Part shown: positions 1 through 16,417 of the stretch, one piece after another
Numbering within the stretch: the stretch's first letter is position 1
Layout of the letters: every line of letters starts with the position of its first letter
Source: Afipia sp. OHSU_II-C1
GTDB lineage: Bacteria; Pseudomonadota; Alphaproteobacteria; Rhizobiales; Xanthobacteraceae
Length of the DNA stretch: 64,000 bases
Reading direction: 5' to 3'
Assembly: GCF_000497575.1 (NCBI RefSeq)
Contig: NZ_APJI01000004.1
Coordinates: 248,001 to 312,000, forward strand
Notes under the pieces: generated by a model
What the model was told of the DNA's origin: nothing
Seen by the model: only the letters and a program-made list of their open reading frames with translations
Databases searched by the model: none
Made by a program: the position numbers and the translations under genes

Positions 1-86
1 AAGAGTCAATCAGCTTTCCCTAAACGAACGGGCGAGACCACTCAGAGCAAGGCGATTTCGGCTTAAGCCGGAATCCGTTTTGCAAA

Positions 87-126
87 GGTGATCACCATCG
101 ATCACCTATTTGAGAGGGTGATCGAT
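87..126. promoter_or_regulatory. Operator array before the AlpA-like gene
   Basis: A perfect palindrome, GGTGATCACC (87-96), lies directly beside an inverted repeat whose arms are ATCGATCACC (97-106) and GGTGATCGAT (117-126). That gives four GGTGATC half-sites in 40 bases. The last arm runs into the ribosome binding site (GAGAGGG, 112-118) and the ATG at 125. A protein bound here would block both the promoter region and translation start. Autoregulation by the AlpA-like protein, or control by a phage repressor outside the window, is inferred. Confidence 0.7.
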
Positions 127-346
127 GTCCGACATCAAGCAAGCTGAATCTCCATTCCTGCTTCCCGAAGAAGTAGACGCGATTTCGCGGTTGTCCGGTA
201 TCACGCGCTGGCGTCGTGAGAAATTAGGACTGTTTCCAAAGCGATTGAAACTATCAGCGCGCAAGATTGCCTACGACCGCGCCGCTGTCTTGGAATGGTC
301 CAAGGATCCGGAGGGATGGGCCGCACGCAATAGCGGAGCAGCGTGA
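125..346 (+). CDS. AlpA-like helix-turn-helix regulator
   Basis: A 73-residue protein with the layout of AlpA/MerR-like phage regulators and excisionases: a helix-turn-helix core (about residues 14-60, including SGITRWRREKLGLFP) followed by an AVLEW segment. AlpA proteins activate or repress genes in prophages and satellite elements. The ATG at 125 follows a GAGAGGG ribosome binding site and sits at the edge of an inverted-repeat operator. Its TGA overlaps the next ATG by one base, so it leads a translationally coupled run of three genes. Family assignment is from pattern recognition; the target genes are unknown. Confidence 0.7.
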   Translation: MSDIKQAESPFLLPEEVDAISRLSGITRWRREKLGLFPKRLKLSARKIAYDRAAVLEWSKDPEGWAARNSGAA

Positions 347-594
347 TGGCAACTGTCATTCCATTCCCCGTGTTCCGGAGGCAAGCCTTTATCGACCGAC
401 AGGCGCAACGCGCCGCTCAGTTGAACAGCGACGCCGGCGAAAGGTACATCGCTCATCAAATCGAAGTGCAAGCTGCTGCGATGCGTCGAAAAGGCATCGG
501 AGAAGATTTAATCACTCGCGAATCTAAGTGTCTGGAGGGGGCTATCAGAGCCTCGCTCTGGCGTTTGGTCATCACGCCAGGCGGTGCTGCATGA
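346..594 (+). CDS. DUF6074-like small protein
   Basis: An 82-residue protein. It begins with a hydrophobic VIPFP motif, then carries an Arg/Gln/Ala-rich helical middle (RRQAF, RQAQRAAQ) and ends LWRLVITPGGAA. This resembles the DUF6074 proteins common in rhizobial prophages and islands; no function is known to me. A GTG lies one codon upstream at 343, but the ATG at 346 overlaps the previous stop as TGATG, the spacing expected for coupled translation. The next gene overlaps its stop as ATGA. Confidence 0.65.
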   Translation: MATVIPFPVFRRQAFIDRQAQRAAQLNSDAGERYIAHQIEVQAAAMRRKGIGEDLITRESKCLEGAIRASLWRLVITPGGAA

Positions 595-1154
595 CCGTCG
601 ATTTCAAGCGCGATAATCGAGGGCGCGCTACCGGTGCTATCGCAGGAAAACGGATGCGCCGCGCCTTGGGTCTACCACAAGGCGTGGGATTCTGCGTCCC
701 AGTCCCACGTGACCTTCTAATCAGCCCCGCTTGGCTCGCAATGTCCGATCAATGCAGAAAGCTTATAGATGGCCTCATGGCGGAGCACGCTGATCATGGT
801 GGACTGGAAAATGGAAACCTAAAAGCTCCTTACGACATGCTCCAATCCCGTGGGATGCGCCGCGGAAAGATACTGGACGCCATCATCGAGGCTGAAGCGC
901 TCGGGATCGTGGATCCGACGCGCGGTGTACGCTCGTACGGATCACGCAAAGCTCCCTCGAAGTACCGACTGACATGGCTCGGAACCCCGGACGGCATGAC
1001 GCCCACAAACGAGTGGAAGGCAATCAAAACAGAGGAGGAGGCGCGGATTCGGATTTCTAATGCAGTCGAGCGATTGCGGAGGGAACGAGCGGACAAGGCA
1101 GCTGTTCGTGCTGAACACCTCGCCCGTCGTGCCGCCGATCGGAGGGCGGCATGA
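591..1154 (+). CDS. Hypothetical winged-helix-like phage protein
   Basis: A 187-residue basic protein. Residues about 35-125 alternate helices and short strands (LISPAWLAM, YDMLQSRGMRRGKILDAI) and end in a KYRLTWL strand, like the winged-helix modules of phage early or replication-associated proteins. The C-terminal 40 residues are a charged Arg/Ala/Glu helix. The open frame extends upstream to 528, but the ATG at 591 overlaps the previous stop as ATGA and is the better start. The position after an AlpA-like regulator fits an early function. The family is not securely recognised. Confidence 0.6.
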   Translation: MTVDFKRDNRGRATGAIAGKRMRRALGLPQGVGFCVPVPRDLLISPAWLAMSDQCRKLIDGLMAEHADHGGLENGNLKAPYDMLQSRGMRRGKILDAIIEAEALGIVDPTRGVRSYGSRKAPSKYRLTWLGTPDGMTPTNEWKAIKTEEEARIRISNAVERLRRERADKAAVRAEHLARRAADRRAA

Positions 1155-1773
1155 AGGAATTTTCCCAGTGTCGTTTTGCGCAATTTCCAGTGACGGTTTT
1201 GGAACTTCTTGGTTACAAAAGGGGAACTAGGAGAACCGCAGAAAAGCAGCAAGAACTGCCATTCTTGCCAAGTTACACATGCTGTAACTGCCTATTATAT
1301 CTTCCCTGTAGAGGGACATCCTGCGGATCAGCCAATGAGTCGGTTCGACTCATCTCACTCTGGTCGCGATACCCAGTCTGGCCCACTTCCCAACGTCGAT
1401 TTTGTCGGCCGAGCGTTCGTTGGATCATTTTCGGCTGTTCGCTCAACCCGCAAAAGGATTGGGTTGAAACCGTAGCAAGCAATTTCAATCGCTTAGGTAA
1501 AATTACGGGGTCTGCCGGCACAGAGCCGACAAGGTCCGCGCACGGTCCGGCTGCGCGGAAAGGCCTGCAGCGCAATGAGATCGCACATCACGCGCGTAGC
1601 GATCGACACAGTTCGAGCACGGCGCGGCACAGTGACCCCCGGGGGGCCATCGTTTCCGAAAGACCGAAGGGGTTCACACCGCTTGGGTCCGCATTCGCAC
1701 ATTTTTTTTGGGGCGGCCGAAAATTTTGGCCGAAAATCGCAAAATGACCGAAAAACCCCCGGGACCAATTTTG
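1155..1773. other. Stretch without a convincing gene
   Basis: About 620 bases between the early gene block and the Cys4 protein. Open frames exist (1151-1747 overlaps the upstream stop as ATGA; another spans 1209-1475), but their translations are rich in Cys, Ser, Arg and Trp and look non-coding. Visible structure: a perfect inverted repeat AGTTACA/TGTAACT (1271-1289) just before a TATTAT box (1293-1298), a TCAACCC/GGGTTGA dyad (1443-1467), a CCCCCGGGGGG run near 1636, eight T at 1702-1709, and a direct repeat GGCCGAAAAT (1715-1724, 1728-1737). It may hold the late promoter or be the scar of lost genes. Confidence 0.45.
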
Positions 1774-2217
1774 ATGGAAATCGAGAATTCCGGATTGGGT
1801 AAACCCAGAGCCGGCAATTGCAGAGTTTGCGGCGGGAACTTTGTGGCTCAAGGTACGCGCGGACCGGTGCCCACCACGTGCTCCAATGTATGCCGGCGTA
1901 CGATTGCACCGGTTTACCTTCCGCGCCTGTTTGCAAAGATTTGCGCCGAGTGCGGCGACCCGTTTGAAACGCCGCTCCGAAAAACTGTTTGCTGCGGGAC
2001 GACCTGTGGACATATCCGCGGTAAGCGTCGCGGCGACGAGGGCCGGAGGGCAAACGCGGACCGCCGCCGGAAGCGAACCTGTCCGCAGTGCTCCGCCACC
2101 TTCATCGCCCGCAATCCCAGCGGTGCCGAACGGCGCGCCGGCCACGTGCAAACGTTCTGCTCCCGCGGTTGTGCCAGCGCGGCCAGGCGCGCACCTGCGG
2201 GCGAGGGCGCCTCATGA
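1774..2217 (+). CDS. Protein with three Cys4 zinc-finger-like units
   Basis: A 147-residue basic protein built from three copies of a CxxC...CxxxC unit: Cys16/19/36/40, Cys57/60/73 or 74/78 and Cys103/106/129/133. Each has the spacing of a treble-clef or zinc-ribbon site, so three zinc ions could bind. Linkers are Arg/Lys-rich (for example residues 81-101), which suggests nucleic-acid binding. No nuclease motif is visible. The frame stays open upstream to a TTG at 1708 and an ATG at 1744; ATG 1774 was chosen because GGGA lies nine bases before it. The next gene overlaps its stop as ATGA. Function unknown. Confidence 0.6.
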   Translation: MEIENSGLGKPRAGNCRVCGGNFVAQGTRGPVPTTCSNVCRRTIAPVYLPRLFAKICAECGDPFETPLRKTVCCGTTCGHIRGKRRGDEGRRANADRRRKRTCPQCSATFIARNPSGAERRAGHVQTFCSRGCASAARRAPAGEGAS

Positions 2218-2633
2218 TCGCGGACGATCCCGTTGCCCGTATCGTTGCTGAGATAGCTGAGCTCTCCGCCGAAGAGCGCGCGCGATGTGTTGAGATCGTC
2301 AATGGGATCGGTGCCGAGCGAGAAAAATGGCGATGGCTGAAGCGGCGAGATACCACCATCCGCGAATATTGCGCGGAATGGCACTCGAACAAAAGCGCGC
2401 GCGGGGCGGCAAAGCATCTGGTGGAGGAGATCATCGCCTACGAGACAACGCGATGGCGCGTTGATCGATTTAAGGCAGGGGTCCCGTCAGATATTGCCGG
2501 TACCAGAACCGTAGTTCTGTTCGAGTTGATGAAGTTGGGCGGGGTACCCTCTGCCGAGCACATTCGGAAGCACATCCTTGTGGGGCATCATCATCGTTTG
2601 AATGCCCCAGCGAATCATCGATCCAGAGTCTGA
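2214..2633 (+). CDS. Hypothetical phage-region protein
   Basis: A 139-residue protein starting at an ATG that overlaps the previous stop (ATGA); the frame stays open upstream to 2088. The N-terminal 45 residues form an acidic helix rich in Ala and Glu (IAELSAEERAR). A basic central part follows (EKWRWLKRRDTTIREY), and the C-terminus has a His run (GHHHR). I do not recognise the family. The position just upstream of the head genes would suit a small packaging or regulatory factor, but no terminase motif is visible and that role is not claimed. Confidence 0.5.
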   Translation: MIADDPVARIVAEIAELSAEERARCVEIVNGIGAEREKWRWLKRRDTTIREYCAEWHSNKSARGAAKHLVEEIIAYETTRWRVDRFKAGVPSDIAGTRTVVLFELMKLGGVPSAEHIRKHILVGHHHRLNAPANHRSRV

Positions 2634-2697
2634 CCATCACGTAGGCCCGCCGTCGCGAGGCTGATCGGTAAAGGTCAACATCCATGGTGGTGACGTG

Positions 2698-3282
2698 ATG
2701 CTTGCAACCGCGACCAAGAATCAACCTGTCGCCGAATTCGAGAGCGCCAAAGCGCGCTGGCTCCCGGTGAAGGCGAAACTCGCCGCAATGGAAAGCTATC
2801 TTAAGGCCCTCCGCACTGTTGTTGCGTTTGAAGCCGCCTCCGATTTCGAAAGGAAAGGTCCTCGGCTCGCACACATGCGCGCTGCGATCGCAGCGGCTTT
2901 TCCGGATGGTCCGCCACGGCGCGGCTTGGCGGCTCTGATTGAAAAGGCGGAGGGCGAGCTCGAGGACTTTCATGCCGTCGTTGCCGATGAACGCGATCGG
3001 TTTCAAATAGCCGTACAAGCAGAGTCCACGAGAATAGGCGAGAGGCTGCAGCCGGCGCACCTTGCCGCCACCCAGGACATTGCCGCGGCGCTGGAAACAT
3101 TGACGCGCGCAATTGCCGCAGCGGACGCAATTCGCGCTGAGTTTGCCTCATCTGCACCTGAACCGACTTCCGCGCTACTGCCCGATGTCACCGCTGAGTT
3201 GCGACAATCCCGTCTAGATGTCTGGAATAGTTCAGCCGCGTCGTGGGCGCGGCGCCTGCGAGAAATGAGGATACTGCCGTGA
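2698..3282 (+). CDS. Hypothetical helical protein before capsid
   Basis: A 194-residue Ala/Glu/Arg-rich protein predicted to be almost entirely helical. Long amphipathic stretches run through residues 10-65 and 80-150. ATG 2698 was preferred over the GTG one codon upstream. The stop overlaps the capsid gene's GTG start as GTGA, so the two are translationally coupled. Composition and place immediately before an HK97 capsid gene are what one would expect of a scaffolding or head-assembly protein, but this is inference from position only. Confidence 0.55.
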   Translation: MLATATKNQPVAEFESAKARWLPVKAKLAAMESYLKALRTVVAFEAASDFERKGPRLAHMRAAIAAAFPDGPPRRGLAALIEKAEGELEDFHAVVADERDRFQIAVQAESTRIGERLQPAHLAATQDIAAALETLTRAIAAADAIRAEFASSAPEPTSALLPDVTAELRQSRLDVWNSSAASWARRLREMRILP

Positions 3283-4313
3283 ACTATCGCGAAGAATTTC
3301 CGTCACTGGGCCGTATGCTCGGCGCAACTGCGGCGTTCGCCCGCAACCTGGAGGATGGTCCTGACCGACGGTTAGCCATGCAAGCCGTCGCTGGGCTTGG
3401 CGGCGTAACCGGTGTCAGTGGCGGGTTTCTGATTCCCGTTGAGCACGCATCATCGATTTGGGAGCGTGTCGACGCTGTTGGACAGATCCTCAGGCGCTGC
3501 ACCAAGCAACCGGTATCAACGAAGCACGGTGACCTGAACATTCCGGCTGTTGATGAACGTTCGCGAGCTGACGGATCGCGCTTTGGCGGCTTGAACCTCG
3601 CCTGGCTCGATCAAGGCGAACCGTTCCCTCAGTCAAAGCCGTCCTTCGGACTGGTGAAGTTCCGCGCAAAAAAGCTCGGCGGCGTGATCAACGTCACCGA
3701 CGAATTGCTCGGAGACACAGTCGCGCTTGACGCGTGGTTCACTCGGGTCACATCCCGTGAGCTCGCTTTCGACGTCGAAGATTCCATCGTCGCCGGATCC
3801 GGGGTTGGCCAGCCGCTGGGCCTCTTGAACGCGCCCGCGCTGATTACCGTCGAGAAGGACGCTGCACAGGCCGCCGGCACGATCAGCTTCGACAATCTGA
3901 AGGCAATGGTAAAACGGCTTTGGCCCGGGTCATTTCCGACGGCATGTTGGCTCATGGGTAACGACGCCTTCGCTGAAATCCTTTCCATGTGGGAGACCGA
4001 CGGCTCAATCCTCAGCACGAACAGTGAGGGCGAGCGGACGCTATTGGATTTTCCAATCGTGCTGACCGAGGCAACATCGTCGTTAGGAGAGATCGGCGAT
4101 ATCATTCTGGCTGATCTCGCTGAGTACGTGGTGGTTGAGTGCGAGGCGGGGACTGGCATCCTTTCCAGTATCCACGTCCGTTTCGTGGCTGATGAAACCG
4201 CATTCCGAGTTGCGGCGCGGGTCGACGGGGCGCCAGCCTGGACATCTCCTGTCACAGTCAAAAACTCGGCGGAGACCGTCTCGCCTTTCGTAACGCTGGA
4301 GGCGCGAAACTGA
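3279..4313 (+). CDS. HK97-fold phage major capsid protein
   Basis: A 344-residue protein that would form the icosahedral head shell. Family signs are GGVTGVSGGFLIP near residues 37-50, the stretch WLDQGEPFPQSKPSFG with the following GGVINVTDELLGDT (P and E-loop region, about 110-150), and the end of the A domain, FRVAARVDG. The N-terminal scaffold-like delta domain is short (about 35 residues), so little would be cleaved. It starts at GTG 3279, overlapping the previous stop as GTGA; a longer frame opens at GTG 3243. It comes before, not after, the S49 protease, the reverse of the classical portal-protease-capsid order. Confidence 0.88.
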   Translation: MNYREEFPSLGRMLGATAAFARNLEDGPDRRLAMQAVAGLGGVTGVSGGFLIPVEHASSIWERVDAVGQILRRCTKQPVSTKHGDLNIPAVDERSRADGSRFGGLNLAWLDQGEPFPQSKPSFGLVKFRAKKLGGVINVTDELLGDTVALDAWFTRVTSRELAFDVEDSIVAGSGVGQPLGLLNAPALITVEKDAAQAAGTISFDNLKAMVKRLWPGSFPTACWLMGNDAFAEILSMWETDGSILSTNSEGERTLLDFPIVLTEATSSLGEIGDIILADLAEYVVVECEAGTGILSSIHVRFVADETAFRVAARVDGAPAWTSPVTVKNSAETVSPFVTLEARN

Positions 4314-5332
4314 TGTTTGAGCATCTCGCCATTGGGAAAGGGTCGGACTTCGACACCCTGCGCCGCGGCCTGCGGAAGCTGCATGGCGAGGTGGTGGCGT
4401 TTGACGGGCGGGAGTCACCGGAGCTCTTAAGCATCGTCATGCACCTTGCTCGTGGCAACGCGATCCCCGACGCCAGATTGGCGGCACTATCATCGGACTC
4501 ACAGCAGCCTCTAGCGTCCCATCGAACAAACATCGTTCCAGCCGCGCATGGCAAGGGGAAGGTAGCGGCCATTGTTTCAGTCAGAGGCACGGCTACGTAC
4601 GACCTTGAGATGTGGCCGTATATGTTTTCCACGCAAAAATTAGCAAGGACCGTTACCGAGTTGGCTAGCGACCCCTCGGTGAACGCTATCGTTTTAGATG
4701 TGAACACGCCAGGCGGCGCCGTCACGGGCACGAAAGAGGCTGCGGACGCCATTTACGCGGCACGATCGCGGAAAGGGATCGTTGCGATAGTAAATCCGCT
4801 TTGCGCTTCCGCCGGATATTGGCTGGCAAGTCAGTGTAGCGAAATCGTCGCTATTCCGTCCGCGGATATCGGAAGCGTTGGTGTGTTCTACCTGCATATC
4901 GATCAGTCGCAAATGTTGGCCGATATGGGACTTAAGCCAACCTTCATTTCGGCCGGCCCGTTCAAGACTGAGGCGAATCCGCTGGAGCCACTGAGCGCTG
5001 CCGCGAAGCAGTTTCTCCAGACCGATGTCGACAACATTTATGCCGACTTCGTCGGAGCCGTTGCGCGCGGACGAAATACAACCGCTAGCGTTGTCCGCTC
5101 TCAGTTCGGGGGCGGACGCTGTTTATCCAGTCGCGACGCGCTTGCAGCCAACATGATCGATCGAATTGAGACCGCAGATCGAGCACTGAATCAAATTCTG
5201 AACGGATCGTCGTCGCCTCGCCAGGCCACTATTGCCCGGCTCACGCGAGATCCCGCCGATCTCACGGACGAGCAGCGAAAGCGACAAGCGCGGGCCAGAC
5301 GGCTCCGGCTGGAGGAGTTGTCCTTGAGATGA
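4313..5332 (+). CDS. S49-family (SppA-like) phage head protease
   Basis: A 339-residue serine protease of the ClpP/crotonase fold, related to lambda gpC and SppA, which matures capsids by cleaving scaffold or portal. Residues 83-138 give the first beta-alpha units (IVLDVNTPGGAV, oxyanion loop). The likely nucleophile is Ser166 in CASAGYW, and the likely general base is Lys218 in GPFKTEANP. The DIGSVGVF strand lies at about 185-192. The last 50 residues are charged and may be a scaffold-like tail. The ATG overlaps the capsid stop as TGATG, and the next gene overlaps as ATGA. Confidence 0.85.
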   Translation: MFEHLAIGKGSDFDTLRRGLRKLHGEVVAFDGRESPELLSIVMHLARGNAIPDARLAALSSDSQQPLASHRTNIVPAAHGKGKVAAIVSVRGTATYDLEMWPYMFSTQKLARTVTELASDPSVNAIVLDVNTPGGAVTGTKEAADAIYAARSRKGIVAIVNPLCASAGYWLASQCSEIVAIPSADIGSVGVFYLHIDQSQMLADMGLKPTFISAGPFKTEANPLEPLSAAAKQFLQTDVDNIYADFVGAVARGRNTTASVVRSQFGGGRCLSSRDALAANMIDRIETADRALNQILNGSSSPRQATIARLTRDPADLTDEQRKRQARARRLRLEELSLR

Positions 5333-5700
5333 GTATCTCCGACCCAATTCTCGATGCATGTCGCCGAGCCGGTGAACGGTTCGGTAAGGTCGCGTTCAGG
5401 GATTTCGGCGCGGACGCGACGGAAGAGAATTTATTTGCCCTTGAACGTATCTTTATCCATGGCCCATCGGATCTCTTCATGGATTCGCTGGGCGCTTCAG
5501 ATGATCAGAGGTTGCTCGCCAAGATCATCTCAGGCCACGCGTTGCGCTCCCGTTATGAGAACCTGGTCCGGAGCGCCGCGGCTGCTCGCTTCAATAGCGG
5601 CTTCCCGAGGGACACCGGGAGGCCGCCTAGCCGGCGGTTGGTTGGCGGTCAGCCAGTCGCCGGCACTGAAATCAAGGGAGGCACCAATGACAGCTATTAA
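5329..5700 (+). CDS. Hypothetical phage protein
   Basis: A 123-residue protein, coupled to the protease gene by an ATGA overlap and overlapping the next start by 14 bases. The first 85 residues look folded and helical (DPILDACRRAGERFGKVAF, then DDQRLLAKIISGHALRSRYENLVRS is a helical continuation in two segments); the last 35 are Gly/Pro/Arg-rich and probably disordered. In a head-tail gene order this is where connector or completion proteins are usually encoded. I see no diagnostic motif, so the function is left open. Confidence 0.5.
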   Translation: MSISDPILDACRRAGERFGKVAFRDFGADATEENLFALERIFIHGPSDLFMDSLGASDDQRLLAKIISGHALRSRYENLVRSAAAARFNSGFPRDTGRPPSRRLVGGQPVAGTEIKGGTNDSY

Positions 5701-6325
5701 CATCATCAAACAAGCTGATCGCGTGCACATGATCACGGATGGGCTTACGTCAGACGGCTTCATCGTTAGCAAAGTAATTCCCTTGCCGCACCTTCGGACG
5801 GTTATCGCTTGCTCTGGGACAGTTGGTGCAGGCCTGATGATCGCTGCTGAGGCATGTCAAGCAGACAGCTACGATGAGGTAAAGCGCAACATCGGCCAGA
5901 TCATGCACCATTGCGAGGCAATGTATCCCAGGCAGATGATAACGCACACGCACCCTGACTACGAAATCTACGTTGCGGGCATATCTGAAACGTCGGGCTC
6001 TGATTTCTACTTCGCTGTGAATCACAAGCGGCGACGTGGTGTGCAACGGTACTCAGAAAATTCACCGGCCGGAGATGTCCTGCTACAGCCGTGCGATCCC
6101 GGAATTGCGGCAACAATCTTCCAAAGCTGGAAAGGGAAGTCACCGGCGTCGCTCGATCCCCTTGCGGAGGGCCCTACTATGATCGAATTCCAACGAAAGT
6201 TTCTAAACCACCAATTTCCTAATCAGATTGGTGGCCTTTGCCTGGTCACTACGGTAACGCGGGATAACATCGTTCAAACCGTTCCCAAGCGCTGGCCGCT
6301 TCATCAAGAGTGGGGTGCGGCATGA
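5687..6325 (+). CDS. Phage Ntn-hydrolase-like (proteasome-like) protein
   Basis: A 212-residue protein starting at ATG 5687 behind a strong AAGGGAGG site. After Met removal the N-terminus would be Thr1, followed by an Asp at position 17 (ITDG) and a Lys at position 28 (SKVIPLP), then a strand IACSGTVGAG. That Thr1/Asp17/Lys spacing and the order of elements match the active-site half of proteasome beta subunits, HslV and other Ntn hydrolases. The C-terminal half has no recognisable motif. Protease or self-processing activity is inferred only. It sits between head and tail genes and its stop overlaps the next start as ATGA. Confidence 0.5.
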   Translation: MTAINIIKQADRVHMITDGLTSDGFIVSKVIPLPHLRTVIACSGTVGAGLMIAAEACQADSYDEVKRNIGQIMHHCEAMYPRQMITHTHPDYEIYVAGISETSGSDFYFAVNHKRRRGVQRYSENSPAGDVLLQPCDPGIAATIFQSWKGKSPASLDPLAEGPTMIEFQRKFLNHQFPNQIGGLCLVTTVTRDNIVQTVPKRWPLHQEWGAA

Positions 6326-7260
6326 GGCGGCTCTCCAGGACCGAACTGCGCTCGGTTGCCCTAATTCGTTCGTCATTGATCCTTCCCGGCGGCGCCAGTT
6401 TAACGACTGAAAATGGCGACGTGTGGGAGTGCGAGAGTGACGCGAATGGCAACTGGCGCGTTGTATCGATTCAGAAGAACTCGGCACCAGGGCGAGGAAA
6501 GCTCACCGCCAATCGGACCTACTACGTACGAACAGACGGTAACGACACCAACGACGGTCTTGCTAACACCGCCGGTGGCGCGTTTCTTACGATCCAAAAG
6601 GCGATCAATGTCGTCTATGGAGCCTTGGACCTTGGCGGCTTCGATGTGGTGATTCAGGTTGGTGCTGGCACATACGGAGCGGGTGTATCGATCACGTCAG
6701 CCCAAGTCGGTGCCGGAAAAATCATCCTACGTGGCGACGTCACCACGCCGAGCAACGTCGTAATTGATGAGCCCGGCAACGCCGTGTACGCCAGCAATTA
6801 TGCAGCCTTCAGTATCGAAGGCTTCAAACTAAAGGCTGCTGTCGGCGGGGGGTTGACCGTTGAATTGGGCGCGCAATGCAATGTCACCGGAAAAATGGAC
6901 TTCGGTGCGTGCGGCTCCGCCCATGTGCAAGCGATGCAGGGTGGTACGATCACCAGCTTTGTCAACTACAGTATCACGGGATCTGCGCCTTCACATCTTT
7001 ACTCACTGATCGGCGGTCGCATCCGCTTCCAGATCGCAACGATCACGATCAGCGGCACACTAGCATTCGGATCTGGCTTCGCGAGAGCTGATGATCTTTC
7101 GCTTATCTATTCCAGCGCCAACACGTACTCTGGCGGCACCGTTACGGGTCCTCGATACTGGGTGACCACTAACTCCCAAATCTACACAGGGGGCGGCGGC
7201 GCAAATTACTTTCCAGGCAACGCAACAGGAACCGCTTCGAGCGGAGGATTATACTCATGA
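6322..7260 (+). CDS. Beta-helix tail spike or fibre-like protein
   Basis: A 312-residue protein. After a basic N-terminus of about 65 residues comes TYYVRTDGNDTNDG and then FLTIQKAIN, the hallmark opening of right-handed parallel beta-helix (pectate-lyase-like) domains in phage tail spikes. The rest is short strands rich in Gly, Thr, Val and Ala with few charges, ending in GGGG and SSGG turns. Such proteins bind or cleave surface polysaccharide. Start ATG 6322 overlaps the previous stop as ATGA, and its stop overlaps the tape measure start. A spike gene before the tape measure gene is an unusual place. Confidence 0.68.
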   Translation: MRRLSRTELRSVALIRSSLILPGGASLTTENGDVWECESDANGNWRVVSIQKNSAPGRGKLTANRTYYVRTDGNDTNDGLANTAGGAFLTIQKAINVVYGALDLGGFDVVIQVGAGTYGAGVSITSAQVGAGKIILRGDVTTPSNVVIDEPGNAVYASNYAAFSIEGFKLKAAVGGGLTVELGAQCNVTGKMDFGACGSAHVQAMQGGTITSFVNYSITGSAPSHLYSLIGGRIRFQIATITISGTLAFGSGFARADDLSLIYSSANTYSGGTVTGPRYWVTTNSQIYTGGGGANYFPGNATGTASSGGLYS

Positions 7261-10091
7261 CGGTAGCGCTCTCTTCGCTCCGTGTTAGCAGCGACTTTGA
7301 TGCCGCCGGCTATGTCCGCGGGGCCTCTCAGAAGGTCTCCGCGGACCAGCAGATGATTGCCGCCGATAAGGCGCGCAACGCTGCGCTTGCGCAGGCCGAT
7401 GCCGCGCTGGTCAAAGCCATTCCTGGAATGCAGGCCGTCAGCAAGGCGCTCCTCGAGGGCTACGGATCCGGCCAGAAGTTCGAGGCCACCATTCAAAAGA
7501 TCGGAAATGCCGTCGACCGCGGCATGGGGCTGGACCGGGCAGAGGCGCTTTTGACCGGCGCCTATCAGAAATTTGGGATGACGGCGGATGCGGCGAAGCT
7601 GGCCGAGCGGGGTTTCGTCTCGATCGCCTCAACAGTCGAAGGGCTAAACAGCCGTCTCGCCGCTCAGGCGGGATTCGTTGCCGATGTAGAACGGGCGACC
7701 CGCCAGCTTGTTCAAGCGCAGCAAGTCCAAGCCCGAATAAACGCTTCGTTTGGAATTGGCGCGAACGACAACAGCGCGGCGCGCGCGGCGGACATTCAGG
7801 CGCTGAGCGCATCCCTGGATGCCCTTCGGTCAAAGTATTCGCCGCTGTTTGCGGCGCAGCAGGGTTATCTCGGCTCGCTCAAGGAACTGAATTCGGTCGA
7901 AGCGCGGACCGCTCTGACAGCGAGCGAACGTGCCGCGGCGATTGCACGCCTCAAGACGTCCTTTGCGGAACAAGTCGTCAGCATGCGCGGGACAAGCGTT
8001 GCAACCGGGCTCGCCGCTTTTGAGATGCGCAATCTCGGCTACCAGGTCAACGACGTCGCGACGATGTTGGCCAGCGGCTCAAGCCCGTTTCAGATCATCG
8101 CGACGCAGGGCGGCCAAGTTTACCAGATCTTGTCTGGAGCCAACGGTGGCGTCACCGGAGCGCTCAAGTCGGTCGGAGCCAGCATCGCCTCGGTGATCAC
8201 TCCCGCTCGCCTTCTGGTGGGTGTCACCGGCGTGCTCGGTATTGCTGGATATGCGATGTATGAAAGCTGGAAGAAAAGCGAACTCCAGTTCGATGCCGTG
8301 GCTCGCCAGGCCAACGTGACGGTTCGCGAATTGCACGAGCTCGAGTCAGCGGCATCGTTTAAAGGCATCGAACAGCCGGCATTCTTCAATGCAATGAAAG
8401 CTTTCAGCGGCCAGGTCTATCAAGCCCAAAACAACGTGGGCGGATTGGCCGAGATGTTTCGCGCGAACGGCCTCAGCGCGAGATCATTTCAGGACTATTT
8501 GCTTCGCTCCGCGGATCTCATCAAGTCAATGCCGGGTGACCAAGCCAAGCTCAACCTCCTGCAGCAGATGGGTCTTCCGGCTTCAGAGGAGTGGGTGCGC
8601 TACTTGGGGCAGGGAAGTGATGGTCTCCGGGCTGCGATCGCAGAAGCCACGAAATTTGGCGCGGCGGCGGATGACAAAATGATCGCGAAGGCCCGTCAAT
8701 TTGATGAGGCCTGGAACAAGGCGACCAAGAACCTCTCGACTGGTCTGCGCTCTGCATTCGTTGACGCCTATGACTGGGCGTCCCGGCTGAGCGACTTTGG
8801 CACAAAGGGATTACTCGCGGTCGGTGTGAACGTCGGTCAGAATCTCATGAAAACCGGATACGGAGAAAAATTCGGCCCCGCTACCGACTTCAGCGAGTTC
8901 TATGACCGAACCGGAGCAGCTCGAGCCCGAGGTGAAGCCGGTGCTCCCAAGCCCGTAGATCCCGCTATCCTGAAGAACGCGCTCGGACTAGAGCAACAGC
9001 GCATAACACTGCTAGGCCAGGCCGCTACCATTCAGGAATCGGTACGGGCGAAGGAGATTCAGATCAACCTGGCTCGCCTCGCCGGCGTCAACATCACACG
9101 ACAACAGGAGGCCGCGCTAAAGGAAGCCGCTCGGTTCGAAGCAGAGTCGGCGAAGCTGCAGCGCGCTTCTCAATACGGCATCTATAATCCGGCGCGACAA
9201 TCGGCCAATGCCGGTCGCGAGATTCAAACGCTGATCGCGGACGGGACAATCCGGAACGCCGAGGACTATGCGGCTGCCTGGTCCGTGATCTCGAAGCGGT
9301 TGCGAGACGGCGCCGACGCCGCAGCCGTTGCCCGTTCGAACCTGCCAGGCCTGACGTCATTCGCACTCGAGGCTGGACGGCTCGACAAGCAATTCGATCA
9401 GTTCTCAGTCGGTGCAATGAATAATTTCACCACCTCGCTGACTGAAATAGCGAGCGGCGCAAAATCGGGCGGCGACGCCTTCCGCGATTTGAGCGCTACG
9501 GTCATCCGCTCTCTGGAGGAAATGGTCATCAAGATGATGATTGTCGCCCCGATCGCGAAGTCTCTGCAGGCCGCGCTAGGCGGCTTCGCTGGCGGCGGTT
9601 TCGATCTAGGCAGCCTGTTCGCCGGTGGCGGCCCAAGTATATCAACTGGCCTCGGCGCCGGCACAGGTGGCATGGCGTTCCCGACGTTTCACAGCGGGGG
9701 TATCGTCGGACTCGAGGGTGCCGCGCGCAACATGCATCCGGCTCATTGGAACGATGCGCCGCGGTTTCACACCGGCATTGGTCCGGGCGAGCGCCAAGCG
9801 ATCTTGCAGGACGGTGAAGGCGTGTTCACCGCGGGCCAGATGAAGGCCCTTGGCTTGATGGCCAACCGCGGTGGTACGCCCGTCTTCAATGTGGTCGTTA
9901 ATGCGCCACCCGGAATGTCGGTTGAGAAAAGTCCGCCTCGACAGAATGGGACTGGCGGCGCGACGATGGAAATCACGATTAAACGGATGGTGGAATCAAC
10001 TGTGTCGGGTGCTATCAGTTCTGGCGAAGGCCCGATCAACGAAGCTCTTCAAACGCGTTATGGATTGGATCCGACGCGAGGCATGACGTAG
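7257..10091 (+). CDS. Phage tail tape measure protein
   Basis: A 944-residue protein of the lambda gpH type that sets tail length and assists DNA passage. It has long Ala/Gln/Glu/Lys-rich helical stretches (about 1-250), a segment AFEMRNLGYQVNDVATMLASG (split here by convention as a 20-residue family signature), and a hydrophobic segment near 312-335 (ARLLVGVTGVLGIAGYAMY). A second helical part reaches about 700. The C-terminal region starts RDLSATVIRSLEEMVIKMMI, continues through a Gly-rich linker (AGGGF, GAGTGG) and ends in a beta-rich domain. A tail shaft of roughly 130-140 nm would follow from the usual 1.5 angstrom per residue. The protein implies a siphovirus-type tail, yet no tail tube gene is visible beside it. 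Confidence 0.9.
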   Translation: MTVALSSLRVSSDFDAAGYVRGASQKVSADQQMIAADKARNAALAQADAALVKAIPGMQAVSKALLEGYGSGQKFEATIQKIGNAVDRGMGLDRAEALLTGAYQKFGMTADAAKLAERGFVSIASTVEGLNSRLAAQAGFVADVERATRQLVQAQQVQARINASFGIGANDNSAARAADIQALSASLDALRSKYSPLFAAQQGYLGSLKELNSVEARTALTASERAAAIARLKTSFAEQVVSMRGTSVATGLAAFEMRNLGYQVNDVATMLASGSSPFQIIATQGGQVYQILSGANGGVTGALKSVGASIASVITPARLLVGVTGVLGIAGYAMYESWKKSELQFDAVARQANVTVRELHELESAASFKGIEQPAFFNAMKAFSGQVYQAQNNVGGLAEMFRANGLSARSFQDYLLRSADLIKSMPGDQAKLNLLQQMGLPASEEWVRYLGQGSDGLRAAIAEATKFGAAADDKMIAKARQFDEAWNKATKNLSTGLRSAFVDAYDWASRLSDFGTKGLLAVGVNVGQNLMKTGYGEKFGPATDFSEFYDRTGAARARGEAGAPKPVDPAILKNALGLEQQRITLLGQAATIQESVRAKEIQINLARLAGVNITRQQEAALKEAARFEAESAKLQRASQYGIYNPARQSANAGREIQTLIADGTIRNAEDYAAAWSVISKRLRDGADAAAVARSNLPGLTSFALEAGRLDKQFDQFSVGAMNNFTTSLTEIASGAKSGGDAFRDLSATVIRSLEEMVIKMMIVAPIAKSLQAALGGFAGGGFDLGSLFAGGGPSISTGLGAGTGGMAFPTFHSGGIVGLEGAARNMHPAHWNDAPRFHTGIGPGERQAILQDGEGVFTAGQMKALGLMANRGGTPVFNVVVNAPPGMSVEKSPPRQNGTGGATMEITIKRMVESTVSGAISSGEGPINEALQTRYGLDPTRGMT

Positions 10092-10093: not shown

Positions 10094-10684
10094 TCAGTGC
10101 CACTTGTTCTCATCACCCGAGTCGATTTCGAAGCTGCGTTTTTGCGCTTCCTTTAGCAATTGGTCCATTTCATCCTGTGGATGAGTTGCGGACATCCCGG
10201 CCTTGGCCGCAGCTAAGTCGACCAGATAACGCGCTTTGAGAGATAGCAATGCGAGATAGCTTAATATGCTCTGGTCGAGATCTTCGCGGTCTATGTATCC
10301 ACCTGCGTCCGTAACGTACGCTTCCGCACGATCTTTGGTCACTTCAAGCTTTATAGCTCGTTGAGATACCTCTGAACCTAGTTGAGCCGCAGCTGCCCTG
10401 ATCTTGGGGTCTAATGTCAGACCTCTCATCGGTTCATCTTTTCCGTCGTGGCCCTGCGAGCTGATGAAAGTCGAGAGATTACCTTTCTTCTCATCGCATT
10501 CATTTGCAAACTTCATCAAGAGTGGAATGAGTTCTGCGGCGGCAAGCTTCCGGTCGGTATCGGATTTAAACTTAAATTGTTTTCTGCTCTCAGCGCCACC
10601 CCAACGCGCAGAGAAGTAGGCCACAACAATTGTCAAGAAAAAACCAACGACTTGGCTTGCCGGAATTCCGTAGTCAACACTCAT
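10094..10684 (-). CDS. Hypothetical membrane-anchored protein
   Basis: A 196-residue protein with one N-terminal membrane segment (VVGFFLTIVVAYFSA, about 12-27) and a mostly helical, charged cytoplasmic part. Residues 45-65 carry a conserved-looking AAELIPLLMKFANEC helix. The start overlaps the stop of the ribbon-helix-helix gene by four bases, so the two form an operon opposite to the tail genes; its stop lies two bases from the end of the tape measure gene. Family unknown. In a prophage such a pair could be a lysogenic conversion or exclusion module, which is inference only. Confidence 0.55.
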   Translation of the reverse strand: MSVDYGIPASQVVGFFLTIVVAYFSARWGGAESRKQFKFKSDTDRKLAAAELIPLLMKFANECDEKKGNLSTFISSQGHDGKDEPMRGLTLDPKIRAAAAQLGSEVSQRAIKLEVTKDRAEAYVTDAGGYIDREDLDQSILSYLALLSLKARYLVDLAAAKAGMSATHPQDEMDQLLKEAQKRSFEIDSGDENKWH

Positions 10685-10878
10685 CGGGGCTTCGCTTTCA
10701 ATCCGATCTCAACCAGTCTGCGGATAGCTTCTGAGCGCGATATCTCGTGACGCTCTGCCCATGCATCGAGAGCGGCGAGCGTGCCCCGCTCAAAGCGCGC
10801 AGGGATGGTTTCGCCATACCTCACACCGGCCGGGCGCCCTCGAGATTTCTTGTGTACAGTTTTTAATTGTTTTGCCAT
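10681..10878 (-). CDS. Ribbon-helix-helix DNA-binding protein
   Basis: A 65-residue basic protein. A Lys/Arg-rich N-terminal arm (about 1-20) leads to the ribbon strand TIPARFERGT and two helices (LAALDAWAERH, SRSEAIRRLVEIGL), the classic CopG/Arc arrangement for a dimeric repressor. The ATG has no recognisable ribosome binding site; the bases before it are AT-rich, so the mRNA may be leaderless or a different promoter arrangement applies. The start codon lies inside an 8-bp inverted repeat (10863-10898), a candidate autoregulatory operator. It is coupled to the downstream membrane protein gene. Confidence 0.75.
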   Translation of the reverse strand: MAKQLKTVHKKSRGRPAGVRYGETIPARFERGTLAALDAWAERHEISRSEAIRRLVEIGLKAKPR

Positions 10879-10935: not shown

Positions 10936-10960
10936 TAACTTCAACCACTGGAGATAACCC

Positions 10961-11332: not shown

Positions 11333-11341
11333 GAAGAGTTG

Positions 11342-11376
11342 GCCGTCGCTACGCGACGTGGCGGCGGCTTTACTTT
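11342..11376. terminator. Weak terminator-like hairpin
   Basis: Between two convergent gene ends, GTCGC (11345-11349) pairs with GCGAC (11353-11357) around a TAC loop. Outer GCC/GGC pairs follow after a small bulge, and a CTTTTTG tract lies downstream near 11372-11377. The stem is imperfect and the T run is separated from it, so this is only a candidate. Confidence 0.3.
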
Positions 11377-11967: not shown

Positions 11968-11994
11968 TTACTCCTCGTTGCGCGGCAAATTTGA

Positions 11995-12606
11995 TCAAAG
12001 CTGAGGTGGTTTCAGGCCGACGATAACAGTGGCTCTATCGCTGGCAAGCCCGCCAAGTTGAAACTGAATATTCCCCGCGGTTAAGGCTTCGACCAAGGGA
12101 TCGAATCCAGCTCCGGGAGAGATGCGGAGTCCATATACGGGTGGCGCCATCATTCCCGTATCCTGAATAACGACATCTATCCCAGCAGCTTGAAAAGTTG
12201 AGATGAGGGAGGTGGCAAAGTCATTTGCCTCTCGATCGCCAAGTCTAACAACTTTCACACCAATTCGATTTCGTCCTCGTAAAGAATCGATGATTGCCTC
12301 CTTTTGAGATTGCTCAAGAGATCGCGAAGATAACTTGGCTTCCAATTCGCGGTGCGCAGTCCTTGCTTTTTCAAGCTCGATCGACAGTTTGAGATTCTGC
12401 TCCTTAAGACGCTCTTGGTCGATGTCGAGCTTCTTGTTGCTTTCGCGAAGTTGTTCGGTGGCGTGTTCGAGTGATGCGGTTTTTATCTCCGCGTCACGAC
12501 GAACCTTCTCGATGCTTTCCTCAGCGCTTCGATCAAAAAAATAAGCCGCTCCTAAGGTGGCAAGAGCAGCCACAGCAGCGCACGTCCATGCAAAAAGAGC
12601 TGTCAT
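11995..12606 (-). CDS. Membrane-anchored coiled-coil protein
   Basis: A 203-residue protein with three parts. An N-terminal membrane helix is at about 5-22 (AWTCAAVAALATLGAAYFF). A long coiled coil runs through about 25-110, rich in Glu, Lys, Leu and Gln. A globular C-terminal alpha/beta domain of about 90 residues opens VKVVRLGDREANDFATSL and ends VGLKPPQL. The ATG at 12606 follows GGGGA. The C-terminal domain looks like a sensor or partner-binding module, but I do not recognise it. The Rz-type lysis spanins share the membrane-plus-coil layout, yet the folded C-terminal domain argues against that. Confidence 0.55.
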   Translation of the reverse strand: MTALFAWTCAAVAALATLGAAYFFDRSAEESIEKVRRDAEIKTASLEHATEQLRESNKKLDIDQERLKEQNLKLSIELEKARTAHRELEAKLSSRSLEQSQKEAIIDSLRGRNRIGVKVVRLGDREANDFATSLISTFQAAGIDVVIQDTGMMAPPVYGLRISPGAGFDPLVEALTAGNIQFQLGGLASDRATVIVGLKPPQL

Positions 12607-12745
12607 CAAAATCCCCCGAGCCGACGTATCGTAACAAAAGTCTACGGGGGCCGTTAGGGGGAAGATCGGGTCCGGGCCGCCTGATCAAACTTCAGGGCGA
12701 TCTTAATCTCAGACCAATCATCGGCAGGTCGAGCGCGTCCGCACA

Positions 12746-13159: not shown

Positions 13160-13356
13160 TACGGAGCACCAAGCAGCTTTCCAATCCGGGCCACCTCTGC
13201 CGGCGTTGGATCGTCCCGCACGATCAGGCTGGCGAGTTCGTGGGTGCGTTCGTCGGACAGAATTCTGGTCTGCTCAACGACGCGCTCAAAGCTGTCCACG
13301 GCTTTGTCGTCGCTGAAGCGCGATTTGGTCCGCCGGCAGAACGACAGGATGCTCAT
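13159..13356 (-). CDS. Small hypothetical protein
   Basis: A 65-residue protein with a basic start (SFCRRTKSRF) and two predicted helices (DKAVDSFERVVEQTR, TPAEVARIGKLLG). The frame has ATG codons at 13365 and 13356; neither has a strong ribosome binding site, and 13356 is preferred because the protein then starts MSILSFC. The stop overlaps the next start (TAATG). Not recognised. Confidence 0.4.
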   Translation of the reverse strand: MSILSFCRRTKSRFSDDKAVDSFERVVEQTRILSDERTHELASLIVRDDPTPAEVARIGKLLGAP

Positions 13357-13497
13357 GAGCAGCATTCAAGCGCAGGCGAGGGCGCAGGTAAATAGTCCTA
13401 GATGTGGTTGCGGAAGGTCGCTGATCGTACCGCAGGTCGCGGGATGGAACGTAGCAGGACGAACATCAACGCTAAGATTGAGCTTATGGAGAGGAAC

Positions 13498-13860
13498 ATG
13501 GCGCACAGGACTAGATCGCGCGGCCAGGCCGCGACTGCAGAACAACGAAGCGCAATGACGTTCGCGGCTATTCGTCCAAAATTCAGCTGGACCAATGAAG
13601 ACTGGTCCTTGGCATTTTTACCGCGTGTCCGTTTAGCGCTGTTGGCGCTAAACCATGACGACAAATCCCTCGAAAGATTCATGAGCGGGGTTGTTAAAGA
13701 GGGGATTGTTCCCGATATGCTCGATGGTTGGGTAGAGACCAAAGAACACCTTAGAGGTCTCGCGGAAATGCTCGATACCGCATTAACCCGATCCTTCATC
13801 GTGCTGGAACGGCTCGGCTACGATCCCGAGAACCCGCCTCCGGATTCGAAGATGCATTAG
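13498..13860 (+). CDS. Hypothetical helical protein
   Basis: A 120-residue protein beginning at ATG 13498, chosen because GGAGAGGA lies just upstream; the frame extends to 13402 without a better site. The N-terminus is Arg/Ala/Thr-rich, and the rest is helical with aromatic residues (FSWTNEDWSLAFLPRVRLALLAL) ending ERLGYDPENPPP. It is isolated in its orientation between two minus-strand units. No family recognised. Confidence 0.45.
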   Translation: MAHRTRSRGQAATAEQRSAMTFAAIRPKFSWTNEDWSLAFLPRVRLALLALNHDDKSLERFMSGVVKEGIVPDMLDGWVETKEHLRGLAEMLDTALTRSFIVLERLGYDPENPPPDSKMH

Positions 13861-13947
13861 GTCGGCTATCGAAGCTCAAGCTAAGACGGTCACGACCTCG
13901 CGCAGGAGCGTCGTGGAGGGAATACCGATCGCTTCAACCGTCGATCA

Positions 13948-14805
13948 TCACCAAGCAATGGCTGCTGATGATTGAGCGGATGGCAACTTCATCCACTTCG
14001 GCGCAATGAGAATTTCCTTTCCACTTCGTCGTTCTGCCGCGGCATAGCGCAAGCTAAAAGGTCTAATTGTCGCCCAGCCTTTGTAAATCTTTCGGATCTC
14101 GGGACAGTCGTCGTAGGTGAGTATCCATGCAGCATCCTTCATTCCGCGGAGTTGCTCGCCCAGTCCCTTGTGATACGTTTCGTCCAACGCATTTAGGTAC
14201 AGCGTCTTTCCTTTGACAAAATAGGGAGGATCGATGAAGCACATCACACTCGTTGGATCCTGTTTGCTGATAAATTCGACACCGTCGTCCCCCGAAACGT
14301 GAATTCTGTCACGATATTCGGCGACCTTTTGGCATCTCGCGATCAGATCATCCTTATTGAATCGAGCGTCTAGCAGCCAATCACCAGTTTGATTAACCCC
14401 ACCGATAGGACCGCCATTCATAATAATTCCAGATCGATTGCAACGATTGAGATAAAACGCTGAAAAACCCCGTTTCAATCGCGCCACGCGGCCGCGAGAT
14501 TTGTAAACTTCACGCTGGCGGCGCCACTCGGCCATGCTGATCCGCTTCGCCGATATCATTTCCGAGAATTGCTTAGACTGATTGGTTAGCGACCACCAAA
14601 AATCGTGGATCGCTGGATCCGCATCGTTGATGTGAACGGCGGGTGCTTCTTCCAGATATAACAACGAAAGGGATGCGCCAGCGCCGCCCGCAAAGGGTTC
14701 TGCGATAGCTAGATCACCGAGATCGTTTAGACGCCTTATTTGTTGTAGCAGCCCGGACATAGCGGATTTGCCTCCGGGATATCGAAGTGGACTCGCAATT
14801 TTCAT
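13948..14805 (-). CDS. D12-class N6-adenine DNA methyltransferase
   Basis: A 285-residue Dam-like methyltransferase that would transfer a methyl group from S-adenosylmethionine to adenine N6. Motif X is PLRYPGGK (6-13), motif I EPFAGGAGAS (36-45) and the catalytic motif IV DPPY (192-195), in the D12 (alpha) order. The stretch FYLNRCNRSGII matches the target-recognition side of this family. ATG 14805 overlaps the stop of the ParB-domain gene as ATGA; a longer frame opens at 14874. No restriction nuclease is evident, so it may be an orphan phage enzyme or half of a two-gene system with the ParB-like partner. Confidence 0.88.
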   Translation of the reverse strand: MKIASPLRYPGGKSAMSGLLQQIRRLNDLGDLAIAEPFAGGAGASLSLLYLEEAPAVHINDADPAIHDFWWSLTNQSKQFSEMISAKRISMAEWRRQREVYKSRGRVARLKRGFSAFYLNRCNRSGIIMNGGPIGGVNQTGDWLLDARFNKDDLIARCQKVAEYRDRIHVSGDDGVEFISKQDPTSVMCFIDPPYFVKGKTLYLNALDETYHKGLGEQLRGMKDAAWILTYDDCPEIRKIYKGWATIRPFSLRYAAAERRSGKEILIAPKWMKLPSAQSSAAIAW

Positions 14806-16250
14806 TTTTCGACTGCCTCGTCGTCCTCGAGCATAAGGCGGAACAGCGGTTCGGTGCGTAGCCAGAATTGCCAAATATCACGAGCGCCCGGTAGGTCCGT
14901 CTTTTGGTGGATAAATGCATGAAGTTCGCTCAAGCTGAAGGGAGCCGCCGCATCATACCTAATCGCTTTCTCGACTTTATTGCTGTCTGAGGCAGACAGC
15001 TTTGCTTTGGCGATTTTTGTTAGTGCAGGAACTAGCTGCTTCATCGTCGGAACGCCATATGGCAAGCGCCCTCTCGTTTCGAGCTGGGCTACAATTTTCG
15101 CAAGCTCGCCAGTTCTTTCGAGATAGTCGAGCGCGGATAGCTCGAAGAACACTCTTAGAAGAACGGCGCCAGCGTTTGGAAATTCATCGCGTTTGAGTTT
15201 TGTTAGTTCGCGACGAATATCAATTAGACGATCGTTGCGAACGCGCACCGCGAGATCACGGGGTAGAACAGTCTTAGTTTCTTGTTTCGATTTTTTTGGT
15301 GCTGAAGTAGTTGCCGCCTTCGCGGGCGACGCGATCGACCTGCCCTTGATGATGTCCGCGGGGACAAATGATCCCTTCTTCTTCGAAGGCCTGTCTTTTG
15401 AGTCCCATCCATCAAAGTACTTCTTTATATCGTCGCTATTATTCAGCGTTCTTGAAGATTCCTTGCCAAGAGCGACGTCGCTAACAAGTTTAGTGAATGC
15501 CTTTACAAATTCTGCCTTGTCCGTCGTTCCGCGCAATCCGTGATCGGGATCTTTTTCGATTTTTAAAGCATCTCTGCCAACGGTGGAGTCGACAACTCGG
15601 CCGAGTGTCGTGAATATCTTTGCTCTCGGGTTATCGAGCTTTGCCTTCACTTCCTCGGCAAGGGGCAATGAACGAGCGATGTCTGCAATCGCGCGTGTTT
15701 GCCGAGCGCTTTGAATGTCACTGAGCGAGAATCCTAGCTGATCGCGCAGTTCATCGTTGTCGTAGCCTTCTTCTAGCTTATCCAAAATGAAGCTGGCGCG
15801 ATTCTCGGCTTCCCAAGCAAGTACGGGCGTGCCGATATGGCGGCCGGCAATTTGTCGGTCGGTGGCCTTGCGGTTAGGAGCGATTGTAACGGGCACGCTT
15901 GATATCGATTGTTGATCGATGATTTTCCGCGACAGCCGCTCTAGCTGGCGGCTCTTCGCTCCCTCTATTAGCCCAGGTTCTTTGAGCGCTTTGAGAGCAG
16001 CCAGCCGTCGATTTCCTTCGACGACAACCAAGCGACCGTCTTCGTTGACGGCAAGCAGCGGTTCATTAGCAAAGAAACCTCTTGTTGCAATGCTTTCAGC
16101 AACTTCCAGCGCTTTGTCATGTTCGAAAAGGTATTGAATAATCTCACGTGGAGCGCGTGCAGTCGTCTCGCGTCCGAGACGTGGATTTTTTCGATCCAAG
16201 TGCAAGCTCGCGACACTTACGCGTCGCGTCGTCCATTCCGACCCAGCCAT
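14802..16250 (-). CDS. ParB N-terminal-domain protein
   Basis: A 482-residue protein. The ParB/sulfiredoxin-like domain spans about residues 10-115 and carries the signature VVVEGNRRLAALKAL (75-89), the GxRR box that binds CTP in ParB or serves nuclease/NTPase relatives. A helical middle follows (about 130-260), then a Lys/Ser/Pro-rich linker (about 285-335) and a C-terminal helical domain rich in Leu and Lys. There is no ParA gene, which argues against plasmid-style partitioning. The next gene, an adenine methyltransferase, is translationally coupled. The gene is clearly more A+T-rich than the chromosome, consistent with transfer. Defence or epigenetic roles are inference. Confidence 0.72.
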   Translation of the reverse strand: MAGSEWTTRRVSVASLHLDRKNPRLGRETTARAPREIIQYLFEHDKALEVAESIATRGFFANEPLLAVNEDGRLVVVEGNRRLAALKALKEPGLIEGAKSRQLERLSRKIIDQQSISSVPVTIAPNRKATDRQIAGRHIGTPVLAWEAENRASFILDKLEEGYDNDELRDQLGFSLSDIQSARQTRAIADIARSLPLAEEVKAKLDNPRAKIFTTLGRVVDSTVGRDALKIEKDPDHGLRGTTDKAEFVKAFTKLVSDVALGKESSRTLNNSDDIKKYFDGWDSKDRPSKKKGSFVPADIIKGRSIASPAKAATTSAPKKSKQETKTVLPRDLAVRVRNDRLIDIRRELTKLKRDEFPNAGAVLLRVFFELSALDYLERTGELAKIVAQLETRGRLPYGVPTMKQLVPALTKIAKAKLSASDSNKVEKAIRYDAAAPFSLSELHAFIHQKTDLPGARDIWQFWLRTEPLFRLMLEDDEAVEK

Positions 16251-16381
16251 TTCAAGATCTCCCCAGACCCAAGCGCATCCAACCGCAACCGGTGGTCGAG
16301 GGCAAGCCGTCGCGCCTCCTTTCCAGGACTATCAGGTCATGGCAGGGAGAATGGTGGGGATGAATAGTTTGGAAAAGTGAA

Positions 16382-16417
16382 CCGACAAGTGAATTCAATA
16401 TCTTGTCGGATGTTTTT
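16382..16417. terminator. Hairpin beside tRNA-Ser 3' end
   Basis: CCGACAAG (16382-16389) and CTTGTCGG (16402-16409) form a perfect 8-bp stem with a 12-base loop. Five T follow on the plus strand (16413-16417) and reach the tRNA's CCA. For the tRNA transcript, on the minus strand, the hairpin comes about eight bases after CCA but the following bases (TTCACTTTTCC) are a weak T tract. It may terminate the tRNA transcript or be part of the attachment region. Confidence 0.45.

Follow-up and report, generated by a model that had tools for sequence, protein, structure and literature searches.

The window analysed here is a 64,000-nucleotide stretch of the Afipia sp. OHSU_II-C1 genome (contig NZ_APJI01000004.1, positions 248,001 to 312,000; G000:C4:248001-312000), whose left part carries most of a 17,865-bp element inserted at a tRNA-Ser gene. 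We consider it likely that this element is an integrated, intact, helper-dependent phage satellite resembling the phage-inducible chromosomal islands (PICIs) rather than a prophage remnant. It would probably be packaged from a cos-type site, and its virion kit, which comprises capsid, maturation protease, tape measure and tail-fibre-like genes, is unusual in being partial. This reading draws independent support from the attachment (att) sites, from diverged relatives and from a packaging-type site shared with a phage family. Dependence on a helper, one of the alternatives raised by the first-pass annotation of the window, is presumed and is the alternative that the att-bounded structure, the partial-kit relatives and the cos-like site favour.

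The element is bounded by a 14-bp direct repeat, TGGCGGAAGGGGTG, which comprises 14 bases of the 3′ end of the tRNA-Ser gene. Because this repeat recurs at attL, 1.4 kb left of the window, with an integrase gene just inside it, we took the 17,865 bp between the two copies as the element. The right end proposed by the first-pass annotation, position 16416, proved accurate, lying one base before attR. That annotation had found no integrase, which holds for the part inside the window, but the element does have one, beginning 0.1 kb inward of attL and stopping 8 bases short of the window. It had also suggested that the missing genes could lie left of position 1, where a full set of packaging, portal, tail and integrase genes would indicate an ordinary prophage. 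The leftward sequence did not bear this out, as it consisted of the integrase, attL and then host DNA. The flank beyond attL was common to 6 of the 10 same-genus genomes fetched (G624, G640, G025, G610, G188 and G065), in all of which it ran to <70 bp from attL. Only 393 bp separate this flank from the tRNA gene in G624, indicating that G624 lacks this insert; in the remaining five genomes the spacers measure 1.4-13.8 kb, and two of them (G188 and G025) have a related integrase. An ordinary prophage was thus ruled out, the left flank being an integrase followed by DNA common to same-genus genomes. The element is integrated between att repeats, encodes an integrase, is smaller than a phage and has no full virion gene set, as expected of a phage satellite. 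A tRNA-Ser-like sequence also lies at about L002:16960-17040, ~3 kb before the window begins; ARAGORN did not call it here, and at the corresponding position of G188, G065 and G640 it reports an unusual tRNA, typed as tRNA-Pro or left unassigned.

The features of the element, from attL to the tRNA gene, are as follows.

L002:18552-18565, outside the window: attL, the other copy of the 14-bp repeat.
L002:18679-19992, left of the window: tyrosine integrase, 437 aa (PHROG integrase, 1.2e-32).
125..346, plus strand: AlpA-type regulator, preceded by the integrase (PF05930, 4.3e-5, above the cut-off).
343..594, plus strand: DUF6074 protein (PF19551, 1.4e-14).
528..1154, plus strand: protein without family match (Pfam, PHROGs).
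1641..1757, plus strand: putative cos-like packaging site, with the core ACCGCTTGGGTCCGCATTCGCAC at 1678-1700.
1744..2217, plus strand: cysteine-rich protein with no family above the cut-off, starting with MTEKP like the small-terminase-like gene of the phages described below.
2695..3282, plus strand: 195-aa protein overlapping the capsid start.
3243..4313, plus strand: HK97-type major capsid protein, short form (PF05065, 1.2e-39).
4313..5332, plus strand: S49 head maturation protease (PF01343, 4.8e-30), without the C-terminal extension of its phage homologues.
5329..5700, plus strand: small open reading frame (ORF), no Pfam family.
5687..6325, plus strand: Ntn-hydrolase-like (N-terminal-nucleophile) protein, by inspection only; no Pfam family.
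6310..7260, plus strand: tail-fibre-like protein, matching 6 phage records at 34-45% and a same-genus element (G630) at 44%.
7257..10091, plus strand: tape measure protein, 944 aa (PF06791, 2e-23; PF09718, 1.6e-5), 48% to that of the G630 element.
10681..10878, minus strand: phage-repressor-like small protein (phrog_4738, 2.5e-6).
13948..14874, minus strand: PD-Lambda-5 B (D12 DNA methyltransferase), anti-phage defence cargo (PADLOC, 2.9e-95; PF02086, 6.8e-9).
14802..16250, minus strand: PD-Lambda-5 A (ParB-like), anti-phage defence cargo (PADLOC, 1.3e-51).
16417..16430, no strand: attR, the 14-bp repeat within the tRNA-Ser 3′ end.
16417..16506, minus strand: tRNA-Ser(tga), the integration target.

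As the first-pass annotation had described, the HK97 capsid, S49 protease and tape measure genes lie in one tight run of co-oriented, abutting or overlapping frames, and the Pfam matches listed above agree with these assignments. The capsid protein has no N-terminal delta domain, TIGR01554 being matched from profile position 85. The protein called a beta-helix in that annotation is the fibre-like one; four of the six phage records that it matches are annotated as tail or tail-fibre proteins. The genes int and alpA lie together at one end, as in Gram-negative PICIs. The frame at 1744-2217 occupies the place of the phages' small-terminase-like gene, a role that we infer from position. Relatives of the Ntn-like protein were present in the Tardiphaga, G630, G619 and G129b elements introduced below; no match was found in phage records, including IMG/VR, and a single weak hit (2.6e-6) fell in G195, a locus that also holds phage genes. 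The 195-aa protein likewise had no match in phage records, including IMG/VR, and we can only guess that it might be a scaffold. Relationships of this protein to the scaffold domain of the phage S49 protein, as a relocated domain, and to a look-alike in another element (G145b) were both unsupported (hhalign probabilities 0.1 and 0.4). The PD-Lambda-5 A/B defence pair (13948-16250) adjoins attR.

For the genes that are missing, all seven ORFs of at least 300 aa in 1-16416 and about 20 chosen ORFs in total were run against Pfam and PHROGs; many overlapping antisense ORFs stood outside these scans. The first-pass impression that there is no recognisable terminase or portal was borne out, as neither a terminase nor a portal was found among the seven long ORFs. 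No connector, tail-tube or lysis (holin) gene was recognised among the ~20 chosen ORFs, where small divergent genes are less safely excluded, and no tail assembly chaperone appeared among the families matched, a class whose small divergent members could escape. A pri-rep replication gene was not recognised either, in that 528-1154 gave no family match in Pfam or PHROGs; proteins near its place in the Tardiphaga and G630 elements match HTH_36, one above and one below the cut-off. Three PHROGs matches were not credited. The 'portal' match on the S49 gene (2.9e-6) covered a short stretch, 596-671 of a 1362-position profile, and S49 matches far better; 'terminase' on 5354-6325 (0.0086) and 'spanin' on 11995-12609 (0.0068) were weak.

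To find relatives, we scanned 391 genomes of the family, one per species, for the capsid protein. Relatives at E 1e-30 were present in 16 of them, 12 of which were fetched (all but G716, G719, G747 and G769); the places G145:C47 and one in G730 were also left out. The first two genome-contig scans for relatives had yielded none and then only Tardiphaga. At the same tRNA-Ser, Tardiphaga robiniae LMG 26467 (Hyphomicrobiales; G026) carries an element of 17,039 bp, both ends of which bear a distinct variant of the 14-bp repeat, TGGCGGAAAGGGTG. Its order is int, alpA, a helix-turn-helix (HTH) protein, the 195-aa homologue, capsid, S49 protease, the Ntn-like protein and an OLD/AriA-like ATPase as cargo; its capsid is 46-47% identical to that of the window and the 195-aa neighbour 33%. 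Another element, also of 17,039 bp and flanked by 39-bp repeats, occupies tRNA-Ser in G630, a genome from the window's genus; it has a different integrase and a kit of ClpP-type protease, HK97 capsid, tape measure and Ntn-like and fibre-like proteins. The identical length of these two elements between their att repeats, although most genes differ, is probably coincidence. A fourth element, on contig 58 of G145 (G145b), comprises 15,293 bp between 49-bp repeats and encodes an integrase, an HTH_17 protein, a STAND-type ATPase and an S78 protease fused to the capsid. No terminase or portal was detected in any of the four elements, with ten proteins of the G630 element, ten of the Tardiphaga element and six of G145b (the fusion, integrase, HTH protein and three more) given to Pfam. 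Three predicted protease types (S49, ClpP and fused S78) are thus each paired with a capsid in one partial kit. Codon positions 1 and 2 were more conserved than position 3 in all five satellite-satellite gene pairs.

Other small elements resemble these in part. Three (G619, G618 and G150) have a tape measure without capsid, terminase or portal according to local models; these absences are weakly based, because the same models missed split terminases. G050 combines a tape measure with a terminase split in two frames; in G129b the tape measure is accompanied by a split terminase and a DUF4055 protein. Both of these terminases, like the DUF4055 protein, were found by reading and checked with Pfam. 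Among the 40 loci run through the local models (14 + 31, 5 shared), which were built partly from phages where they then match, 21 had terminase, portal and capsid, 2 had portal and capsid, 2 had a split terminase, 6 had a capsid without terminase or portal (the 4 bounded elements and 2 cut loci), and 9 had a tape measure alone (3 of them at contig ends). In small integrated elements of two genera, the large terminase is divided between neighbouring frames, an N-terminal one matching PF03237 and a downstream one that gave no Pfam match (L139:13808-15357 and L144:5693-7137). A tape measure gene is also present on two plasmids of the Methylobacterium group, p3META1 (L172, 24.9 kb) and pAMS5c (L173, 20.5 kb), whose incomplete gene tables name no head or packaging gene; these are perhaps plasmid-form satellites.

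The segment 1641-1757 resembles packaging regions of full phages. It is 81% identical over 117 bp to a stretch of the G733 prophage where the small-terminase-like gene, so called from its position, begins just before the large terminase, and matches the contigs of two IMG/VR phages at 82.5% over 80 bp (L041) and 74% over 111 bp (L042). Coding matches between the element and these phages reach 66-73% at the DNA level. A model built from these three phages only was scanned over 45 other loci (1.48 Mb) and matched the window site at 3.7e-20 and the G630 element at 7.9e-9. It also matched two phages outside the model, G294 (3.7e-7) and G764 (5.3e-7), both upstream of the large terminase. Matches in G351 (0.14, upstream of its terminase), G457 (0.21), G730 (0.34) and the window minus strand (0.16) were not credited. 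A 16-base core was present in 3 of the 4 elements and occurred once in the host genome, where the reversed control gave 0. A 23-base version was found at three places in the 391 family genomes, namely the window, Tardiphaga and G733; this pattern was derived from its three matches, so that its absence elsewhere, not its presence, is informative. These results suggest that 1641-1757 is a cos-like site at which the element DNA would be cleaved and packaged.

The same phages are the best full-phage relatives of the element and constitute one siphophage family (G733 / IMGVR_UViG_2926965794_000002 / IMGVR_UViG_3300049570_000052), which we regard as a candidate helper family. The window capsid is 47-48% identical to those of the two IMG/VR records, the best match among the full phages compared, as was also found for the S49 protease, and the tape-measure N-terminus reaches 60%. 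The family shares capsid, S49 protease, tape-measure N-terminus and cos-like site with the element and differs in having terminase, portal and a second capsid paralogue. Large terminase and portal were confirmed by Pfam in two of the three model phages (G733 and L042), and G733 also has tail and lysozyme-like genes, by reading. All three phages carry S49, a short capsid without the delta domain and a long capsid with it; of these two forms, the window has the short one. In these phages (L041, L042 and G733:C4 at about 74-78 kb of the contig) the two HK97 capsid paralogues stand side by side. Their tape measures are longer, 1277 aa in the L041 contig and 1450 aa in G733. The capsid-S49 order in the window and Tardiphaga elements is the reverse of that in the full phages compared.

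The proposed life cycle is as follows. The element would integrate into tRNA-Ser through its tyrosine recombinase, with an int-alpA opening as in Gram-negative PICIs. Infection by, or induction of, a siphophage related to the G733 / IMGVR_UViG_2926965794_000002 family would lead to excision and replication, and the helper terminase would cut and package the element DNA at 1641-1757, as the similarity of the sites suggests. The satellite shell protein and S49 protease would then build a head, presumably small, around the helper portal, and the satellite's own tape measure and fibre may be substituted into the tail and modify it. Judging from the genes present and absent, the helper would provide portal, terminase, connectors and tail tube. 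The PD-Lambda-5 pair would travel as cargo.

Capsid-forming PICIs (cfPICIs) encode terminase, portal and connectors along with their own capsid and protease. The present element likewise has its own major capsid protein and protease, but no connectors were found, and no terminase or portal among its seven ORFs of at least 300 aa. Putative tape measure genes appear in a sampling of cfPICIs, according to a figure legend (PMC12987554, Extended Data Fig. 10). Gram-negative PICIs of the EcCICFT073 type are described as having int and alpA, a specific attachment site and cos sites resembling those of phages (PMC6092414). Here int, alpA and the attachment site have counterparts, and the cos-like site, at which cleavage is presumed, resembles that of one phage family, a candidate helper only. 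EcCICFT073 itself has no capsid morphogenesis genes (PMC6092414), whereas this element has capsid, protease, tape measure and fibre genes. In cos-type Staphylococcus aureus pathogenicity islands (SaPIs) such as SaPIbov5, a cos site like that of the helper accompanies a capsid homologue, Ccm, which is required for small heads and insufficient alone (PMC5052747). The element resembles these SaPIs in its cos-like site and its capsid homologue of HK97 type, and adds maturation protease, tape measure, fibre and relatives in Hyphomicrobiales, as compared by description rather than by Ccm sequence. The PICI-like elements (PLEs) of Vibrio cholerae encode a tape measure that is built into chimeric tails, and their virions contain the helper capsid protein (PMC12987554). 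A satellite-encoded tape measure is common to the PLEs and this element, in which no tail assembly chaperone was recognised among the families matched.

Several observations weigh against the satellite reading. The Tardiphaga and G145b elements show no tape measure, so that the tape measure is an optional part. The Tardiphaga site was matched only weakly by the phage-only model (0.017), and scanning with that model found no cos-like site in G145b, G619, G618, G150, G050 or G129b. A short tape measure was ruled out as a satellite hallmark, as the full phages G072 and G123 have tape measures of 842-846 aa. The codon-position bias could be a legacy of phage ancestry. In addition, searches of the host for capsid relatives, TerL_nuclease and Phage_portal revealed no helper prophage, and the candidate helper phages reside in other genomes. 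The host genome contained no second capsid relative at E 0.001 and no match to TerL_nuclease (PF20441), the one terminase family searched genome-wide; its single Phage_portal (PF04860) match lies in a cluster that reads, by inspection, as gene-transfer agent (GTA) genes. The TerL_nuclease search is a weak test for a helper, because PF20441 also misses the GTA-like terminase.

No resident helper was seen, and capsid, protease and tape measure have homologues in a full phage family; both points would also fit a defective prophage, stripped of terminase, portal and most of its tail and kept for its defence genes. We consider this explanation, the remnant of the first-pass annotation, unlikely. 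Two diverged elements with a similar partial gene set share the tRNA, the int-alpA opening and a capsid-S49 order reversed relative to the full phages compared. Moreover, the 195-aa gene was not found in the compared full phages and the Ntn-like gene gave one weak match, while the frames are intact and the cos-like site is retained. Structural genes without packaging genes might alternatively mark a domesticated element whose capsid and tail parts have been recruited by the host into a tail- or GTA-like particle, akin to the gene-transfer island also envisaged in that annotation. This is very improbable given that the element has its own integrase and clean att sites, a patchy distribution as judged from the capsid relatives, and no recognised tail tube, baseplate or lysis gene. 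A gene-transfer agent combines terminase, portal, capsid and tail genes; the element has neither terminase nor portal, and the host has a separate GTA-like cluster.

How the satellite would use its capsid homologue is less certain. The protein may build no shell alone and, like the SaPIbov5 Ccm, join or act on the helper capsid and force a smaller head. In favour of such a role, the window and Tardiphaga capsids have no delta domain, and paralogues with and without it occur in the candidate helper family. Against it, the presence of a dedicated maturation protease, and of relatives that pair their capsids with ClpP or fused S78, looks like a full shell kit, and we hold the Ccm-like role to be rather doubtful. 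Tentatively, and with slightly less than even confidence, we propose an undescribed class of Hyphomicrobiales satellites ('shell-and-ruler') whose own coat and coat protease would take the place of the helper's, as would, in part, their tape measure and fibre. Portal, motor and tail tube would be left to the helper, which would be addressed via a copied cos site. Such kits would have arisen on more than one occasion, using three unrelated protease types.

A 2026 paper states that, before PLE, there were no reports of satellite-encoded tape measures (PMC12987554). The element described here would extend tape-measure-bearing satellites to another bacterial order. No description of this gene combination was found in the literature, as judged by titles and abstract openings, with most subscription papers and preprints outside that scope. 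Satellites are usually described as borrowing the helper particle or, for cfPICIs, as making the whole head. The present element would stand between these types, with its own head shell, protease and tail ruler and with motor and portal from elsewhere. Since the element comes with candidates for both the helper family and the packaging site, this division of labour is directly testable.

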